NCBI GenBank assembly: GCA_020631035.1
Contig: JAHDIA010000002.1
Span: 8,684-43,588 of the forward strand
Direction of reading: 5' to 3'
Length of the DNA: 34,905 nt
DNA from: Chitinophagales bacterium
GTDB lineage: Bacteria > Bacteroidota > Bacteroidia > Chitinophagales > UBA2359
Shown here: positions 4,839-34,588 of the stretch, one piece after another
Layout of the letters: every line of letters starts with the position of its first letter
Position numbering within the stretch: the first letter of the stretch is position 1
Notes under the pieces: generated by a model
Databases searched by the model: none
What the model saw: only the letters and a program-made list of their open reading frames with translations
What the model was told of the DNA's origin: nothing
Translations under genes and position numbers: made by a program

Positions 4839-6104
4839 ATGAACCTACGAAACGGAATCTTATTAATAGCTTTGATTACGGCCGCAATTGGTTTGATTGA
4901 AGTAAACAACCGAGCGAGCGAGCGAGCGGCCAAAATAGAGGAACGCTTCAAAGCTGCCGTAATCGCTGCCGCCCCCACTGGACAACTCGAATACTTTGCT
5001 TTTCCCAATAGCGAGGACTATTCCAATATACCACAAGATCCCAAAAACCCAATCAACAAACCAAAGGTCGAACTCGGTCGAATTATCATTCAATCGAAAT
5101 ATACAGGTATCAAACCAATGAACAACGCTGGTTACGGCTTGTACAATTGTGTGATTTGCCACCACGACGGCCACGGTTTCACCAACCCAACAGATGTTCC
5201 ATTGGGAGACGGCGGCATCATTTTTGGCGATACTGTTGTCCGTAATCCCTACTATACAGAGGACTCACTTTGCGACCTGTCAACCCTCAAGGCTTCGACT
5301 TTTCTTAACATCGCATATTCGGACCTTGTGTTGTGGTCGGGAATGCTAGGATACGAGGGCGCAAATTCGGGCATTGACTTTGACCAATTGGCTCATTTTG
5401 AGCATCCTAAGCAGTTGAACGACCTTGAGTTCAAAGGTCCAGAACTTCAGGCATTCGGGGCGGGTGTAATGGCTCACCGATTTATATTTGATCCTACGGA
5501 CGAGCTGACAAAGGACTCATATATCGGTAAGCTGTTTTATCTTGCTTTTCCCAACGACCCCCACCCTATCAATGACATTAATGCAGGTCTAGCAATTGCC
5601 GCTTTTGAGCGAACCGTATTGGCAAACGAAGCACCTTTCCAAAAATGGCTCGCTGGTGATAAGAATGCCTTATCTGAAACCGATAAGCGAAACGGGCTTC
5701 ATTTCTTCAAATCTTGTGCGACTTCGGGTTGCCACAATTCGCCCGCTTTTGGGAACGATAGCGAATTTCACAATTTCGATTTTCCGAATATGTGGGATTG
5801 TTACGATCTCGTAGAATACGACGAAGCTGCCGCAAATGGTCGCTTTATTGTGACGGGCGACTCGTCCGATATTGGCAAATACAAAGTACCTCAATTGTAT
5901 AATGTAAGTGACCATGAGTGCTGGGGGCATTCGTGTTGTTACGACGATATGGATGCCATTGTACAGGCACACAATTATAACCTAGAATTTTCATATTTGA
6001 AAAAATGTAACAACTTTGTAACAGTCGCTTTACGTGATCCAAACCTCAGCCGTTACACCAAAACACAAGGCGAAAAAACAGACGCTGAACTACTGTTACA
6101 CTAG
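4839..6104 (+). CDS. di-haem cytochrome c peroxidase-like (MauG/CcpA family) protein
   Basis: N-terminal hydrophobic signal/anchor; canonical CxxCH (CVICHH) plus a second, CX4CH motif (CATSGCH) followed by N-S-P-A-F; overall di-haem peroxidase layout. Confidence 0.75.
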   Translation: MNLRNGILLIALITAAIGLIEVNNRASERAAKIEERFKAAVIAAAPTGQLEYFAFPNSEDYSNIPQDPKNPINKPKVELGRIIIQSKYTGIKPMNNAGYGLYNCVICHHDGHGFTNPTDVPLGDGGIIFGDTVVRNPYYTEDSLCDLSTLKASTFLNIAYSDLVLWSGMLGYEGANSGIDFDQLAHFEHPKQLNDLEFKGPELQAFGAGVMAHRFIFDPTDELTKDSYIGKLFYLAFPNDPHPINDINAGLAIAAFERTVLANEAPFQKWLAGDKNALSETDKRNGLHFFKSCATSGCHNSPAFGNDSEFHNFDFPNMWDCYDLVEYDEAAANGRFIVTGDSSDIGKYKVPQLYNVSDHECWGHSCCYDDMDAIVQAHNYNLEFSYLKKCNNFVTVALRDPNLSRYTKTQGEKTDAELLLH

Positions 6105-6661: not shown

Positions 6662-7375
6662 TTATTTGTTTTTGTTTTTCTTCTTAGTCTTGGTTTTCTT
6701 CTTAGGCTTGCTTTTTGATTTCGCCTTGGTCTTAGGCTTTTCCGAATCTACAGGAGCAGGCTTAACAGATGAATTTGGTGTTACTATATCAATATAGTTT
6801 GTTTGTGCATCTATAGCCCATTGTATGGCCTTGAAAACTTGAATCAAGGTCGCTAATTGACCTATTTGGTATTTTCGGGTATAGTAACACTTATCTGAAA
6901 AATAAATATTCTTTATTTTCCAAAAAAGAAACAAAGCAAAATCCTTACAATAATTTTTCCCATACATATCAATGAGGTTCTCGTGTATACTTTTGTCACA
7001 CAAAAAAGGGGGGTATGTAGGTCCGTTGTATAGACCGAAAGTTGATATGTTAGTGTTCAATATTTCCCCATATCCTAAGTCAAATTTATGTATCAATATC
7101 ATTAGTTGTGATATACACAACAAATAATGATTTTCGGCACATACTTCTAAATGTGGAATATCACGAGAATCATTGTCGAAATGCAACATGTTGATTACAT
7201 TTTGAATGTCGGCAAGATAGTTGTCATTCAAAAATCCTTTGACATTTTTTTTGATCTTATACGTGAGATTAAACGTTTTTTCTCTGTCGAGAATGGAAAT
7301 TCCTAATTCTTTTAGGGATTTGGTGAGAACAGGGGGCGACATTGCCCACTTTTTTAGATCATTTCTTTTGCTCAT
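6662..7375 (-). CDS. hypothetical protein with Lys-rich C-terminal tail, downstream of ncRNA C
   Basis: 237-aa ORF ending ...KPKTKAKSKSKPKKKTKTKKKNKNK; start codon overlaps motif X3 of element C. Confidence 0.6.
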   Translation of the reverse strand: MSKRNDLKKWAMSPPVLTKSLKELGISILDREKTFNLTYKIKKNVKGFLNDNYLADIQNVINMLHFDNDSRDIPHLEVCAENHYLLCISQLMILIHKFDLGYGEILNTNISTFGLYNGPTYPPFLCDKSIHENLIDMYGKNYCKDFALFLFWKIKNIYFSDKCYYTRKYQIGQLATLIQVFKAIQWAIDAQTNYIDIVTPNSSVKPAPVDSEKPKTKAKSKSKPKKKTKTKKKNKNK

Positions 7376-7393
7376 TTTATGAAAGTTGAAGTT

Positions 7394-7590
7394 AAAAAAT
7401 AGCCTAGCATGTAGGCTTAGTTCAGTTTGAGCAAAAGAACTGTGATTTCAACCTTGTACGAAAACAAGGAAAGAACTCAACCTAACACACTAGACCATAT
7501 CTTCAAATCATAAAGATATAATCAAATTCAATATTTAAAGTAAGAAAATTTCGACACAAAGTACGAAATCAACTTATTCTTTTGCTCAAT
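7394..7590 (-). ncRNA. candidate ncRNA C (X/X'/X3 class)
   Basis: Minus-strand TATCTTTG (7592-7599) followed by X1 TTGAGCAAAAGAA (7577-7589); perfect antisense TTCTTTTGCTCAA (7427-7439 on + is TTGAGCAAAAGAA); extra TGATTTC/GAAATCA pairing; terminator AGCCTA-catgc-TAGGCT-ATTTTTT (7394-7417). Confidence 0.65.
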
Positions 7591-7591
7591 A

Positions 7592-7599
7592 CAAAGATA
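7592..7599 (-). promoter_or_regulatory. Bacteroidota-type -7 element TATCTTTG for ncRNA C
   Basis: TAnnTTTG consensus immediately 5' of X1; -33 element weak. Confidence 0.5.
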
Positions 7600-8127: not shown

Positions 8128-8556
8128 TCAATTCTTCAAACTCCTAAGCAATAGTTTATTTTTAGCCTTAGAGCATATAGTTTCATTCAAAGAAAAAAAA
8201 GAAGGGCTTGGACCATCATTGTATTCAACACCATCCCAAATCCCTCGTGAATCTTTATACATGATAAGATAGTCTTGAGGGTCGATATTTTCGTCTATTC
8301 TAATATCATATAACACCGACCACATATCATTTGTAACTGATTTGTAACCACCAAGGTCTTGAATCATTATTATACTACCCTCAATAGAATAAGTATAATT
8401 AGAACGATTAGCAAAAATGTTCAACTGGGCATCATTTTTTGATTTTAAGTTCTTTTGTTTTATACGGCAAACTGGACCGATTCCATGTTCCATTGAAACT
8501 GGGTTACTTAGTCTCTTACCGCAAATAGAACATTGATAATGTTTTAAGTTATTCAT
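8128..8556 (-). CDS. small zinc-ribbon protein (CSICGKRLSNPVSMEHGIGPVC; DUF6011-like)
   Basis: CxxC...GIGPxC motif in the N-terminus of a 142-aa ORF. Confidence 0.6.
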   Translation of the reverse strand: MNNLKHYQCSICGKRLSNPVSMEHGIGPVCRIKQKNLKSKNDAQLNIFANRSNYTYSIEGSIIMIQDLGGYKSVTNDMWSVLYDIRIDENIDPQDYLIMYKDSRGIWDGVEYNDGPSPSFFSLNETICSKAKNKLLLRSLKN

Positions 8557-8677
8557 GAAAAAGTATATTAAAGGTTAAAAAAGCGTCGGATGAGCGGGCG
8601 GTTGCACGCTTGTACGAAGCCCAAAGCATGCGCTGGCTAACCAGTACAAGCGTCGCCACATTTTAAAGGTTTAAAAA

Positions 8678-8863
8678 TTATATATCTAAAGGATCAAATT
8701 CATAAGAAAAAAAATCTCTTAGCTCAGATATAGCCGAATTATTATTCATCATTAGCAAATGAGATATGCATCGAATTACTTTTGATAACAGGTATAGGCA
8801 AATACCAACAATATAAGCGATTAAGTATAGAGGTATTAATAATGTTAATATTTTTTTTTGCAT
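8678..8863 (-). CDS. small membrane protein, copy 1
   Basis: 61 aa, ATG start, hydrophobic segment LTLLIPLYLIAYIVGICLYLL; duplicated at 8975..9160. Confidence 0.5.
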   Translation of the reverse strand: MQKKILTLLIPLYLIAYIVGICLYLLSKVIRCISHLLMMNNNSAISELRDFFSYEFDPLDI

Positions 8864-8974
8864 AAAAAAAGTTTAAAAAGCGTCGGACGAGCGGGCGGTT
8901 GAACGCTTGTACGAAGCCCAAAGCATGCGCTGGCTAACCAGTACAAGCGTCGCCACATTTTAAAGGTTTAAAAA

Positions 8975-9160
8975 TTATATATCTAAAGGATCAAATTCAT
9001 AAGAAAAAAAATCTCTTAGCTCAGATATAGCCGAATTATTATTCATCATTAGCAAATGAGATATGCATCGAATTACTTTTGATAACAGGTATAGGCAAAT
9101 ACCAACAATATAAGCGATTAAGTATAGAGGTATTAATAATGTTAATATTTTTTTTTGCAT
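8975..9160 (-). CDS. small membrane protein, copy 2 (identical)
   Basis: Identical translation to 8678..8863. Confidence 0.5.
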   Translation of the reverse strand: MQKKILTLLIPLYLIAYIVGICLYLLSKVIRCISHLLMMNNNSAISELRDFFSYEFDPLDI

Positions 9161-9279
9161 AAAAAAAGTTTAAAAAGCGTCGGACGAGCGGGCGGTTGAA
9201 CGCTTGTACGAAGCCCAAAGCATGCGCTGGCTAACCAGTACAAGCGTCGCCACTACCCAAAGCCGATGCAAATAAAAAA

Positions 9280-9773: not shown

Positions 9774-9845
9774 TTTAGTAGATTTTGGTGGAAAAATTGG
9801 TTTTTTTAAAAAAATGGTGTCTTATACTTTGAATATGTCGAAAAC

Positions 9846-10064
9846 TACAACTACATAACTACAAATGTAAAAAAAACACTTAAAACGTTGATAATCAATG
9901 ATTATGCTATGTAGTTCTTATGTAGTTGTGTGTAGTTGTAACAACTACGTGTAGTTGCTACAACTACGTTAGAACTACATAAGAACTACATACTATTTAT
10001 GGTTTAAGTTGTTGATAATTAGATGTTTATGTTTTTTTACTAATTTTTGTAGTTGTGTAGTTGT
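9846..10064. other. putative replication origin / iteron region
   Basis: Many copies of (T)GTAGTTGT/ACAACTAC, a 19-bp perfect inverted repeat (9909-9927 / 9973-9991), AT-rich, downstream of the primase gene. Confidence 0.5.
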
Positions 10065-10069
10065 AGTTT

Positions 10070-13000
10070 TTATGGTTTTTTTTGAAACGGTATTTGTTTT
10101 TGTTGGTTTTTGGAATCTTTGATAAATGCTTGGAACCTAGCTGCCAAATCTTCATTCTCGTTTTTAAGCTGTGCAATTATATCTTCATAGTCTGGCTTTT
10201 GTCCGAAATCCTCAATATGAGCTTTTGGAGCTAAGTCGATGCCTCGTTCTTGTAATTTGCCATAGTCGTAAACATATGCCGTCGTGGGTTTTCCTGTACC
10301 GAATCGGGTTTGGTGGTTGGCTGCGAGAAATGCTTCGTCATTTTTGAGGTAATGGCGTAAAGACTTGTCATCTAAGGCACCCGCTCCGAACATTGATTTG
10401 TATCTTGGTCCGTATTGAGGAAATATATTGGTGAATTTGAATTTTAGTAAGGTCTTTGCTTCGCCCTCCCAATCAGCCTCGACAATCTTATAATCGTATG
10501 GTGTTTCTAATGTATTGTTTTTGTCTTTGACTGCTGATTCAAAACATAACCAGAAGCGACCAAGATCAATGGAGCCTCCAAAGTCCTTTTGTTGTAAGCT
10601 CAGTATTTCTATTGTGAACTTTTGTAGTTTTTCATATGTAAAAGGAAATGCTAGATAAGGCGATAATACATTGTACATTGACAATAACATACACAGATAA
10701 TCGGATGTACGGGATTTTAGTATCCCGTCCTCTACGAGTTTGATGTGTTTTTCCTGTTCTTTTCTGAACTCTTTACGGAACAATTGTTGGACTGCTGGAC
10801 GATATTTGAGCACCTGAGCGAGTAAGTGGACAATTCCATCGGTTTCGTAGTCTCTCATTTTGTTGAATGCGCTTTTATTAAATTCCCGTTTGTTAAATCG
10901 CAATATGATAAACCTTGTATAAAGGTCCTCGTGTATTGTTGGAAGCTGTGTTCCACAAACCAACACCTGAGAACGCATCGGAAATACGACGGTACGGTTG
11001 TTGTTTGAATAGGCTTTATTTCTGTTTGGGTTTCGGTTGTAAGTTGCTCGTAATAGTCCTGTGTGTCGTTTTTGCTCGGCTGTAATGTTTTTATATTCGT
11101 CAAGCAATAGCGTAGCGTCGCAAAACTTGGACATTGTGGCATTTATTCCCTTTGGTGTAGAATCACCACATAAATCAATGGGGAATTGACGTTCCCCAAA
11201 CCAGGATAACATTGATTTAGCCATTTGGGTTTTACCCGTTTCAGGTTGTCCATAACTGAACAGCATCGGCATTGACTCATTTAGCGATTTGAATACCTCC
11301 GTTGAGTGAACCAAACACATAAGATACATGAGTCCTATCATTCCATTATTTTGATAATTGGTAAGGAACAGCTGAGTATATTCCTCAAAACTAACATCGG
11401 TCGATATGTATCTGAATTTACGTTCATCAACGACCATGTTTTTATCCACGGATTTACTGAAATATGGTAAGTATAGATAGGTTTTGTTTTGAATCTTGAC
11501 GATGTTTTTTTGTTCGTCTACTGGGTGAAAAACACCATCTTTGATAATACCGTTTGACATTATATACGCCTGGTGTTCTTCGTTCCATCCAAGGAAATTG
11601 GGTTCGATGCAAAATTTTTCTTTCTCGAAAAGTTTTGCCTTTATTTTGCCGAGGTCTGAGTCGGACCCCATAAAACGAAAATTCCCCATTCCCTCTAATA
11701 CTCTTTTGAACTTTGACAAGTTGATCATGTCCTCGATAGCGAACTCGACTTGTTTGCGGACACCTGCATCGTTGACAATTTCCATTACTCTTTTTTGATC
11801 CTGTATAAACATATCGGGTATAAGAATAAAATTTGATTTTGCCGAACCTGAGTAAGTTGCTGAAGACGTAAAAAAGTATTTGTTTGCTTCCTCATAGAAA
11901 CCATAGTTCTCTATATCGAACCTTTGTTGGTCGGTTCGCTTTATTTTCCCCGTTCGTTCGGCTTCGAGTTTTTCGTCGATTATTTTTTTTACGGCTTTTG
12001 TAAGGTCTGCTTTGTTGAACTTGAATTCTGTACAAATCTCTTTTGTTAACTTCTGTCGAATATTTTCGGCTTCAATACTCGATAGCAATAGGGCAACATA
12101 AGACTCTAATTGTAATAGTGCAAAAGTGTCTTTGTCTTCTGGATAGGCTTCAGATACCAGGTAATTGATTCCTAGTTGGGAGCTGTTCAACACTTCTAAC
12201 ATTGCCAATTGTTCCCGTAATTGATTCCTAGATTCAATGAAGTTTATAAACTGCTTTTGTTTCCATTGACTGTACTTTGGATAAGTTGATTTCGTATATA
12301 ATAAATCAGCGGGGTCTTTGCCCTCAGCTATGATACATATTTGTACATTCAATTGGTTACGGATACCAATTTCGATGGCTTTTTTGGCTGCTTTGCGTCC
12401 CGCTTCGTCGCCATCAAAAATAAACACCACATTGGGCGTATATCGGGCAATGATTTGGGCGTGTTGCTCGGTAAAGGCGGTACCACAAGTGGCAATCGTG
12501 TTGATCCAACTTTCTTGGTACATAAGGTCGGCATCTGTATAGCCCTCGACGACATATACTTTGTTATGTTTTTTGATGGCTTTCTTTGCTCGATGTAGCC
12601 CATACAAAGTCCTCTTTTTCTCAAATATTTCGGAATCAGTGCTATTGATGTATTTGGGGTTTTCCCTTGTGGTTTTATCCAACGTTCTTGCACCAAATGC
12701 AACTATGTCACCTTTGGTATTGTGTATTGGGAATGTAATACGGTTTGACCAAATGTCGTCTTTGTTTTTCCCTTCCCAATATCCGATCCCTAGTTCGGCA
12801 ATTGTTGCGGGTGTATAGCCTCGTTTGCTGAGGTACTCCAGCGCATCGGGGCGGCTCGCCATTGCGGCGAGTGCCTTTTGTTGCGAATCTTGTATTTTCT
12901 GTTTGAGCTTGCTGGTTCGGTCTTCTTTCTCTATTCGTTGCTGTTTGGTGGTATCGTCTTCATCTTCGTACTTAATGGTAATGTTGAAGTGTTCAGCAAT

Positions 13001-17091: not shown

Positions 17092-17125
17092 AAAAAATCC
17101 CTCGGTTTTGCCGAGGGATTTTTTT
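17091..17125. terminator. bidirectional terminator overlapping the CRISPR distal repeat
   Basis: AAAAAAATCCCTCGG-ttttg-CCGAGGGATTTTTTT. Confidence 0.9.
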
Positions 17126-17413
17126 TATTCCAGTTTGGTACGATTAAAACTAGGTACAAAATTTACTACTCTATAACAATGTACTTTATTTCAATTCCAG
17201 TTTGGTACGATTAAAACATTTGATTTTGATTTTAACAACCCAGTGGGCAACTTATTTCAATTCCAGTTTGGTACGATTAAAACGGGCGGTTTTTAGGGCT
17301 TAGACAGTTAGTAAACATATTTCAATTCCAGTTTGGTACGATTAAAACTTAGAATTGACAAAGGGGGCAAAGATGGGTATACAATTTCAATTCCAGTTTG
17401 GTGCGATTAAAAC
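17121..17413 (-). CRISPR. orphan CRISPR mini-array: 5 repeats, 4 spacers
   Basis: 30-nt repeat GTTTTAATCGTACCAAACTGGAATTGAAAT (minus strand) at 17384-17413 (one variant base), 17319-17348, 17254-17283, 17188-17217 and degenerate 17121-17150; spacers of 35, 35, 36 and 37 nt; ATTGAAAT 3' handle. Confidence 0.92.
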
Positions 17414-17530: not shown

Positions 17531-17658
17531 AGCGTTCCGTCCAAATTTTTATAATTTTGTGGCTGGGCATTTTCTCCTTTCCTTTTATGGAATTCAATCG
17601 GTTGACGTTGGTTGTAGGGGAATTTGCCCCGTTTTTTTGTTGGTTGATTGCGGTTTGT

Positions 17659-17666
17659 TATATTTG
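17659..17666 (+). promoter_or_regulatory. promoter of ncRNA A (-7 TATATTTG, -33 TTTG at 17636-17639, 19-nt spacing)
   Basis: Matches the Bacteroidota TTTG-N19-TAnnTTTG pattern. Confidence 0.65.
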
Positions 17667-17670
17667 TATT

Positions 17671-17841
17671 AACAATCGCTGACAATTGATTGTAAACCGT
17701 TAATGGATCGGCTAAATTCCATTGAATACATATTTTTGTAAGTATAAGATTTGGGGCATTTTCTCCTTTTCTCACTTTGGTTATGCCATTAGTGGGATAC
17801 AACTGTTGTCAGCGATTGTAGGGGAATTTGCCCCGTTTTTT
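17671..17841 (+). ncRNA. candidate ncRNA A (X/X'/X3 class), upstream of HNH A
   Basis: X1 ACAATCGCTGACAA 17672-17685; X' TTGTCAGCGATTGT 17806-17819; terminator GGGGAATTTGCCCC+T-run 17821-17841; X3 CAATCGCTGACA 17863-17874 just before ATG 17876; highly similar to ncRNA B. Confidence 0.75.
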
Positions 17842-17875
17842 ATTTTATTTACTCACTTAAATCAATCGCTGACAC

Positions 17876-18244
17876 ATGAACGATTTAAACTACCGAGTTG
17901 ATCCCAGTATCTCGCAAGAGGTCAACCAATTGCAATTTTTTACGCTTGCTTATTTACAAGTTTCCTCGAAAATGTCTCGCAAAAAATGCGTTTACTGTGA
18001 GATACGTACAACTGAAGCGAATCGAACAGTTGACCATTTAATCCCGAAATGTCGGCTCACTTTGTTGAGTGAGCGACTCGTGACCGTGATAGGTCCATTG
18101 AACAAATATTGTTGTTGTCGAGCTTGTAATACTCTCAAGGGCGACATGAGCTTGAGGGAATTTTACGAGCTGGTAAAAGCGTCGAATTTGGAGCGTAAAA
18201 AGGCAATCTTACGCAACATTGGGAAATTGATCTATTTGGATTAG
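17876..18244 (+). CDS. small HNH endonuclease-like protein A
   Basis: KKCVYCEIRTTEANRTVDHLIPKCR...NKYCCCRACNTLKGDMS: CxxC, DHLIP, CxxCNxxKG signature; paralogue of the ORF ending at 33687. Confidence 0.85.
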   Translation: MNDLNYRVDPSISQEVNQLQFFTLAYLQVSSKMSRKKCVYCEIRTTEANRTVDHLIPKCRLTLLSERLVTVIGPLNKYCCCRACNTLKGDMSLREFYELVKASNLERKKAILRNIGKLIYLD

Positions 18245-33604: not shown

Positions 33605-33665
33605 GTCGCTCGTGGAATGAAATTGGCATAATATAAATCGTCGTCAAGTTCATTCCACGGGCGAC
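33605..33665. repeat. 17-bp inverted repeat carrying the B2 motif downstream of HNH B
   Basis: GTCGCTCGTGGAATGAA (33605-33621) / TTCATTCCACGGGCGAC (33649-33665), one G:U-type mismatch. Confidence 0.9.
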
Positions 33666-33686
33666 TTGTGGGCTGGTTCTTCGGGA

Positions 33687-34349
33687 TCAGTCCACTTTTA
33701 TGATACGGCGTAGGTTGTGGAGTATTTTGTCCTTACGCTCCAAGGTGGATGCTTTTATAAGCTTGTAGAATTGTAACAAACTAAGATCGCCTTTTAGGGC
33801 GTTGCATTCTCTACAACACCAATACTTATTCAGTGGAGCTATAATATTTATAAAGGCGTCGTTTAATTGCTTCAATCTACAACGAGGGACGAGGTGATCT
33901 TTGGTTCTGTTTTGCTCCGTTGTACGTATCTCACAATACACACATTTTTTACGAGTCATTTTACTACTTTTTTGTAAGTAGGTCAATGTCCAAAGATTTA
34001 GTAAACTGATTTCTTCCGAGATGGCGGGGTCAACTCTATAGTTGTTAATGTTGCCGTGTCCCGTTGCTGGGGCCGTGGAATGGGCTTGAGTTCTCATAAC
34101 TGTTGCTTTTGTAGGGTTAAGTAAACTTAAAGGCCCAGTCGCCAAACTTTGCCATTCCACGGGCTTTATAAGTTTAAACGAACTGGGCACAGTTGTTCCG
34201 TTATCGAAATATTTGTTCGATGCCCGTGGAATGTACGACCAAATATATTGCATATATGGACCATATGCCAATATGATTTGTAAACGCACCCAAAACGAGC
34301 ATAAACGGTTGATTTGGCTTTGTAAGCCGCTTTTTTGAAAATCTTTCAT
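33687..34349 (-). CDS. HNH endonuclease-like protein B with ~100-residue N-terminal extension of uncertain coding status
   Basis: NYRVDPAISEEIS...KKCVYCEIRTTEQNRTKDHLVPRCR...CCRECNALKGDLS, clear paralogue of HNH A; homology starts near 34052, so true start may be internal (e.g. MRTQAH). Confidence 0.8.
   Translation of the reverse strand: MKDFQKSGLQSQINRLCSFWVRLQIILAYGPYMQYIWSYIPRASNKYFDNGTTVPSSFKLIKPVEWQSLATGPLSLLNPTKATVMRTQAHSTAPATGHGNINNYRVDPAISEEISLLNLWTLTYLQKSSKMTRKKCVYCEIRTTEQNRTKDHLVPRCRLKQLNDAFINIIAPLNKYWCCRECNALKGDLSLLQFYKLIKASTLERKDKILHNLRRIIKVD
34073..34247 (-). ncRNA. candidate ncRNA unit B2 (X-X'-X arrangement) within the 5' part of ORF B
   Basis: Minus-strand TATATTTG (34240-34247), 6 nt, X1 CATTCCACGGGC (34222-34233), X' GCCCGTGGAATG (34153-34164), X3 CATTCCACGG (34073-34082). 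Confidence 0.45.
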
Positions 34350-34376
34350 TCTCGGTGATTGATTTTAGTGAGTAAA

Positions 34377-34550
34377 TAAAAAACGGGGCAAAGTCCCCTA
34401 CAATCACCGAGAAATGTTGTAGTCCACCAATGGCAATGCCAAAAGGTAGATAAAGGAGAAATTGCCCCAAATCTTAGTTTTGAGTATCAGTATACACAAT
34501 GGAATATAGCCGTTCCATTAGCGGTTTACAATCGTTTCTCGGTGATTGTT
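34377..34550 (-). ncRNA. candidate ncRNA B (X/X'/X3 class), upstream of HNH B
   Basis: X1 ACAATCACCGAGAAA (34535-34549), X' TTTCTCGGTGATTGT (34400-34414), terminator GGGGACTTTGCCCC+T-run (34378-34398), X3 CAATCACCGAGAA (34349-34361) overlapping ATG at 34349. Confidence 0.75.
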
Positions 34551-34554
34551 AATA

Positions 34555-34562
34555 CAAATATA
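34555..34562 (-). promoter_or_regulatory. promoter of ncRNA B (-7 TATATTTG; -33 TTTG 34582-34585, 19-nt spacing)
   Basis: Same consensus and spacing as promoter A. Confidence 0.65.
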
Positions 34563-34588
34563 ACAAAGATTTTCAAAAACCCAAACCA

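Follow-up and report, generated by a model that had tools for sequence, protein, structure and literature searches.

C4/CI-like anatomy of three-copy leader elements in a Bacteroidota contig bearing phage genes

C4/CI-type immunity RNAs are so far known from enterobacterial phages. Satellite phage P4 makes a CI RNA that pairs with an upstream (seqA) and a downstream (seqC) site on the same transcript, which leads to premature termination (PMC4825925). In phages P1 and P7, the C4 RNA of the icd/ant operon blocks the ant ribosome-binding site and underlies heteroimmunity (PMC12197685).

Here we describe three leader cassettes (A, B, and C) in a Bacteroidota metagenome-assembled genome (MAG; Chitinophagales bacterium, GCA_020631035.1). 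The window analyzed is a stretch of 34,905 nucleotides (positions 8,684 to 43,588 of contig JAHDIA010000002.1) from a contig of 43,588 bases that bears phage genes (terminase, integrase, primase, and tape-measure protein). In each cassette an antisense segment (X') is complementary to an upstream site (X1) and a downstream site (X3) on the same transcript, and X3 overlaps the translation start of the predicted controlled gene. As in P4 CI (RF01695, with isrK and c4-a1b1 upstream), target and antisense lie on one transcript, in the order X1 (seqA), X' (seqB), X3 (seqC) with X3 where the following gene begins; spacing is similar (188/79 nt in P4 vs 134-149/52-65 nt in the cassettes), and action would be expected through premature termination. 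Unlike P4 CI, the cassettes have no sequence or Rfam match, a much longer X1:X' hairpin, a strong intrinsic terminator between X' and X3 plus an alternative pairing of a segment L with that terminator (L:T), a Bacteroidota promoter, and an HNH or unknown ORF, and there are two to three copies per genome. The likeness to P1/P7 C4 lies in an RNA encoded upstream in the operon it would control and pairing at the translation start, and sequence differences among C4 RNAs give heteroimmunity, which the differing X words of the cassettes recall; they differ from C4 in having no RF01695 match and in that the controlled gene is not an antirepressor.

Layout of the leader cassettes

Element B occupies 34349-34585 on the minus strand, about 320 nt from the contig end, and both its coordinates and the blocks it shares with element A are as given in a preliminary description of this DNA. 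Its order on the minus strand is promoter, X1, a hairpin of about 150 nt closed by X1:X', X', a GC stem with U-tract, AAATCAATC-X3, and ATG. One 13-nt word, CAATCACCGAGAA, serves as X1, inverted X', and X3, exact in all three places.

34582..34585, minus: putative promoter -33 element TTTG, 19-nt spacer to the -7 box (from sequence and consensus)
34555..34562, minus: putative promoter -7 box TATATTTG, ending 6 nt before X1 (from sequence)
34536..34548, minus: X1 CAATCACCGAGAA, likely RNA 5' end (from word match)
34455..34468, minus: segment L GGGGCAATTTCTCC, complementary to the terminator, possible antiterminator (from pairing energy and fold)
34401..34413, minus: X' TTCTCGGTGATTG, inverted copy that can pair with X1 or X3
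34378..34398, minus: predicted intrinsic terminator GGGGACTTTGCCCC-G-TTTTTT
34349..34361, minus: X3 CAATCACCGAGAA, its final A being the A of ATG
33687..34349, minus: HNH ORF B, 220 aa

Element A (17636-17875, plus strand) has the same layout and precedes an HNH ORF of 122 aa. Its 12-nt word, CAATCGCTGACA, is again exact as X1, inverted X', and X3.

17659..17666, plus: putative promoter -7 box TATATTTG, with TTTG at 17636-17639
17673..17684, plus: X1 CAATCGCTGACA
17753..17766, plus: segment L GGGGCATTTTCTCC
17807..17818, plus: X' TGTCAGCGATTG
17821..17841, plus: predicted terminator GGGGAATTTGCCCCGTTTTTT
17863..17874, plus: X3 CAATCGCTGACA, 1 nt ahead of ATG
17876..18244, plus: HNH ORF A, 122 aa

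In both elements X1 is flanked by 6-bp inverted arms (ACAATC...GATTGT) around a variable core, and X1 of B would alternatively fit the loop of this local hairpin. The C-terminal ~119 aa of HNH B are 63% identical to HNH A, relative to which ORF B carries an in-frame insert of ~300 nt after its start; the AlphaFold2 model of HNH A has a pLDDT of 39. A separate repeat, CATTCCACGGGC, occurs in five copies in both orientations inside and just past HNH ORF B (window 33607-34233).

Upstream of A lies a partial further copy of the A/B type, relic R, which has no matching X1 or X3.

17540..17640, plus: relic R
17565-17577, plus: L of relic R
17602-17614, plus: X' of relic R, TTGACGTTGGTTG, different from that of A
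17617-17636, plus: terminator of relic R

Directly upstream of relic R and A, a CRISPR-type 30-nt repeat, ATTTCAATTCCAGTTTGGTACGATTAAAAC, is present in five copies with spacers of 35-37 nt (window 17116-17413); no further copy was found in the MAG and no match in phage records.

Scanning for words in forward-inverted-forward order recovered cassette C (7362-7599, minus strand). No sequence similarity between C and A/B was detected; the order of its elements is the same and their spacing nearly so.

7592..7599, minus: putative promoter -7 box TATCTTTG
7577..7588, minus: X1 TGAGCAAAAGAA
7473..7484, minus: segment L TAGGTTGAGTTC, complementary to one side of the C terminator
7428..7439, minus: X' TTCTTTTGCTCA, inside a small hairpin CAGTT...AACTG
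7393..7417, minus: predicted terminator AGCCTACATGCTAGGCTATTTTTT
7363..7374, minus: X3 TGAGCAAAAGAA, overlapping ATG
6662..7375, minus: ORF C, 237 aa, lysine-rich tail, no recognized family

ORF C is unrelated to the HNH genes, and the three-copy leader layout is thus not specific to them. This bears on the idea of an RNA-guided or homing device, in which the HNH protein would bind the RNA and X would act as guide or recognition site in the style of IscB and its omega RNA. The position of an HNH nuclease directly downstream of a structured RNA invites such a reading, which we nevertheless regard as extremely unlikely: HNH A is short (122 aa), and neither a RuvC nor another nucleic-acid domain was found in it, the RNA has no Rfam match, C combines this RNA layout with a gene that is not HNH, and the three supposed target copies sit inside the cassette itself. 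IscB/omega-RNA (HEARO) systems proper were rejected on the same features of HNH A (a 122-aa HNH-only protein without RuvC) and the missing Rfam match.

Matched words and their concerted change

The longest word shared in forward-inverted-forward order was at most 8 nt in 2000 of 2000 dinucleotide shuffles of each element, compared with 12 (A) and 13 (B) observed. X1 and X' are 134 (A), 135 (B), and 149 (C) nt apart, X' and X3 56, 52, and 65 nt, and X3 falls within -13 to +13 of the ATG in each. Restricted to these spacings and to k>=12, a scan of the 43.6-kb contig returned A, B, and C and no other site; 317 kb of MAG sequence from other contigs gave no match. All three cassettes further share a TAnnTTTG box that ends 3-6 nt ahead of X1 (the Bacteroidota promoter consensus being TTTG-N19-TAnnTTTG) and a U-tract terminator between X' and X3.

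The core had been described as changing at X1, X', and X3 together, and this is borne out. Three substitutions separate A from B (G>A, T>C, C>G) at all three sites: X' carries the compensating change each time, and X3 the same change as X1. Next to them, a fourth stem pair goes from U.G to A-U, and RNAalifold counts five pairs altered on both sides. For X', hypervariability is not significant in A vs B alone (3/10 vs 1/26, p=0.06) and becomes so once relic R is added (A vs R 5/10 vs 0/26, p=0.0007). The specificity segment differs among A, B, and C yet stays internally matched. Since no homologue was found outside the contig, the evidence for covariation is drawn from the complete copies A and B, the partial R, and the unrelated analogue C, and so is the view of X as hypervariable yet matched. 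Pairing of X' with both X1 and X3, also part of the preliminary description, is strongly supported by the matched words of A and B, their independent recurrence in C, and the layout of the P4 control. If X1, X', and X3 are required to match, X would change in concert and each cassette would receive its own code.

The same data speak to a simpler reading, an ordinary leader hairpin with terminator in which X3 is a trivial remnant of a duplicated leader. Removing X1-X3 would indeed fuse the promoter to the ATG, as expected of a hairpin insert with a 12-13 nt duplication; X', however, changes in concert with X1 and X3 between A and B, and the arrangement recurs with another word in C, so that we judge this account very unlikely.

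How separate the codes are is a different question. A and B share 5 of 8 core positions, and predicted cross-pairing is -8 to -9 kcal/mol for X' of A on B sites and about -14 kcal/mol for X' of B on A sites (cognate pairing, about -21 kcal/mol), from which we take the two codes to be only partly orthogonal. The codes thus differ, as had been proposed, but are predicted to be partly cross-reactive; with the homologue survey also empty, selection against cross-talk is at most tentatively suggested.

Alternative folds and the proposed mode of control

Predicted energies of X':X1 and X':X3 are nearly equal (-21.4/-20.6 kcal/mol in A, -21.6/-21.4 kcal/mol in B). In A and B, GGGGCAnTTTCTCC of segment L can also pair with GGGGAnTTTGCCCC of the terminator (T), and in C TAGGTTGAGTTC pairs with GAACTAAGCCTA and the terminator stem. 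These L:T duplexes reach -24.5 (A), -23.6 (B), and -28.0 (C) kcal/mol, values equaled in 2, 6, and 0 of 1000 shuffles, and the gap from the end of L to X' is 29-32 nt in all three. In the resulting alternative fold L:T would enclose a small hairpin with X' in it or close by, and in both A and B X1 could occupy the loop of its own hairpin. The recurrence of L:T in the unrelated C argues for function, possibly, on these predicted folds, as an antiterminator. The more stable predicted state in all three is the long X1:X' hairpin with terminator (MFE -58.6 vs -52.0 for the L:T state in A, -62.3 vs -48.4 in B, -61.8 vs -50.8 in C).

By analogy with P4 CI and P1/P7 C4, we think each cassette is probably an operon-leader antisense RNA that lowers expression of its own downstream gene through termination and covering of the start codon. 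Supporting this are the parts themselves, their exact matches, the concerted change, the reappearance of the layout in C, and how strong the alternative pairings are, all legible in the DNA. Transcription would begin at X1, and the majority of transcripts would stop at the terminator just past X' as untranslated RNAs of about 170-190 nt, while read-through past the terminator would give the HNH mRNA. X' could thereby pair with either of two sites on the transcript that carries it, the 5'-terminal X1 or X3 at the start codon. The first pairing would promote the long hairpin and terminator. The second, formed in cis or by short RNA that has accumulated and acts in trans, would hide the start codon. 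Both would reduce expression of the HNH gene, and L:terminator pairing would be the competing read-through state. Of this model, we infer promoter use, termination, trans action, the sign of the regulation, and the idea that it serves to silence a nuclease that would be harmful or come at the wrong time. The preliminary description had likened the element to antisense RNAs of copy control and antitoxins; antisense control remains the best reading, but the phage immunity RNAs (P4 CI, P1/P7 C4) are the closer model. A point against a C4-type reading is that HNH genes are not the usual targets of such RNAs.

Folding predictions add detail on cis and trans action. The predicted fold of the full-length RNA hides X' in its pairing with X1, so that trans action would need processing, displacement, or kissing. 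When X1 is removed from the A transcript, X' is not predicted to cover X3. When X' was ranked against every ATG of the window that opens an ORF of 60 aa or more, the segments of A and B were predicted to bind their own start best, but that of C was not.

The main rival to the antisense reading is an attenuator that works in cis only, switching between X1:X' with terminator and the L:T antiterminator on some signal (protein, metabolite, 5'-end processing, or ribosome), with the short RNA idle in trans and X3 merely tying the start codon to the state of X'. The sequences of A, B, and C clearly provide for both states, as the MFE values indicate, and in B the start region is predicted to be free in the full leader and covered once X1 is missing. 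Such an attenuator alone gives no reason for different X words in each cassette, and no ligand pocket or known riboswitch family was found; we rate it as unlikely, if worth keeping in view.

Structure also weighs on the possibility that the X copies act as DNA, either as binding or crossover sites (for example of a recombinase that flips the terminator) or as operators of the downstream protein. The inverted arms around X1 in A and B and the disposition of X' and X3 as inverted repeats around the terminator would suit such sites. Stem pairs outside X are nonetheless kept despite one-sided changes (G-U allowed), and L:T pairing and the terminator make sense in RNA only, which together make DNA-level sites the less likely; furthermore, X3 lacks a second arm and no recombinase gene adjoins the cassettes. 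We consider this reading quite improbable.

Distribution and relation to known systems

The survey of homologous cassettes that the preliminary description proposed, for an X both hypervariable and matched, yielded no homologues. The searches together covered IMG/VR, INPHARED, plasmids, a GTDB scan, and more than 1000 genomes by profile or protein; short exact-pattern scans miss diverged copies, and the genome samples are small relative to all species. For the HNH protein, no relatives were found in IMG/VR, INPHARED phages, plasmids, or class- and phylum-level genome samples, and 85,462 GTDB genomes gave only two PtuB-like HNH loci, both without the RNA. The A/B RNA and DNA had no homologue in phages or relatives: IMG/VR DNA patterns returned only chance promoter-like or short matches, and the A/B covariance model R1 had no match in 399 order-level and 396 phylum-level genomes. 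Element C gave only short AT-rich matches, the ORF C protein had no relatives in 41 genomes or in phages, and the layout scan, run on six Bacteroidota phages and on ~400 kb of MAG sequence, found only iteron-like or unrelated repeats. A literature search for Bacteroidota HNH leader RNAs found no paper. As no homologue was found, transcription of the cassettes and the reason for two codes are likewise what we infer.

Applied to satellite phage P4, the layout scan recovered a seqA/seqB/seqC-like word, TTCACAGG, at 8651 and 8384, with the inverted copy at 8463; at 8384 the P4 counterpart of X3 adjoins AGGAGG and ATG (X':X3 -31.8 kcal/mol). The P4 Rfam matches place X' within C4 (8420-8507) and X1 within isrK (8615-8692). 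At k=8 the P4 scan also yields replication-origin repeats and one other word, and is therefore not specific at that word length. In cmscan at E<=5, A, B, and C gave no match to C4 (RF01695), isrK (RF01394), or c4-a1b1 (RF03163), and the P4 control matched all three families. By anatomy, then, the cassettes are C4/CI-like yet outside the Rfam families.

Other systems share single features. Gifsy-1 IsrK resembles the proposed arrangement in giving a terminated leader sRNA and a read-through mRNA from one promoter; it differs in that the cassettes have no RF01394 match and IsrK is reported to open, not close, its downstream site. The antisense-controlled attenuators of pT181 and pIP501 have mutually exclusive terminator/antiterminator pairing in the leader, as do the cassettes, but their antisense RNA comes from the opposite strand and that of the cassettes from the same transcript. 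A retron ncRNA with PtuB-type HNH is similar in its paired 5' and 3' RNA ends beside an HNH protein, here with weak PtuB similarity; X3 has no retron counterpart, and a retron reading was provisionally set aside, no reverse transcriptase having been found among the scanned ORFs adjoining the cassettes, of which B lies near the contig end. Group I/II introns and known riboswitches were rejected for want of an Rfam match.

We also entertain, more tentatively, that the cassettes belong to a class of phage leaders with no sequence relationship to C4. Such a leader would be an attenuator that can adopt terminator and antiterminator states and carries a re-writable barcode three times, at the 5' end, in an inner antisense loop, and at the start codon; it would fit different cargo and provide several private channels per phage genome. 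A sequence-unrelated Bacteroidota counterpart, with several codes and cargo per genome, would make this layout a recurrent solution for silencing a dangerous gene. A search for the layout needs no sequence similarity, only matched words spaced at set distances ahead of a start codon, and C was found in this way.

Three further features were noted in the window. An ORF for a di-heme cytochrome c peroxidase (CCP_MauG, window 4839-6104) is likely host DNA, so the prophage boundary may fall between that ORF and ~8 kb, near the cassette. A tandem repeat at window 8565-9253 comprises two full 297-nt units (98% identical), each containing a 61-aa ORF, and a partial third. Inverted repeats of the ACTACATAA type cluster at window 9822-10070 beside the primase ORF, possibly marking a replication origin.
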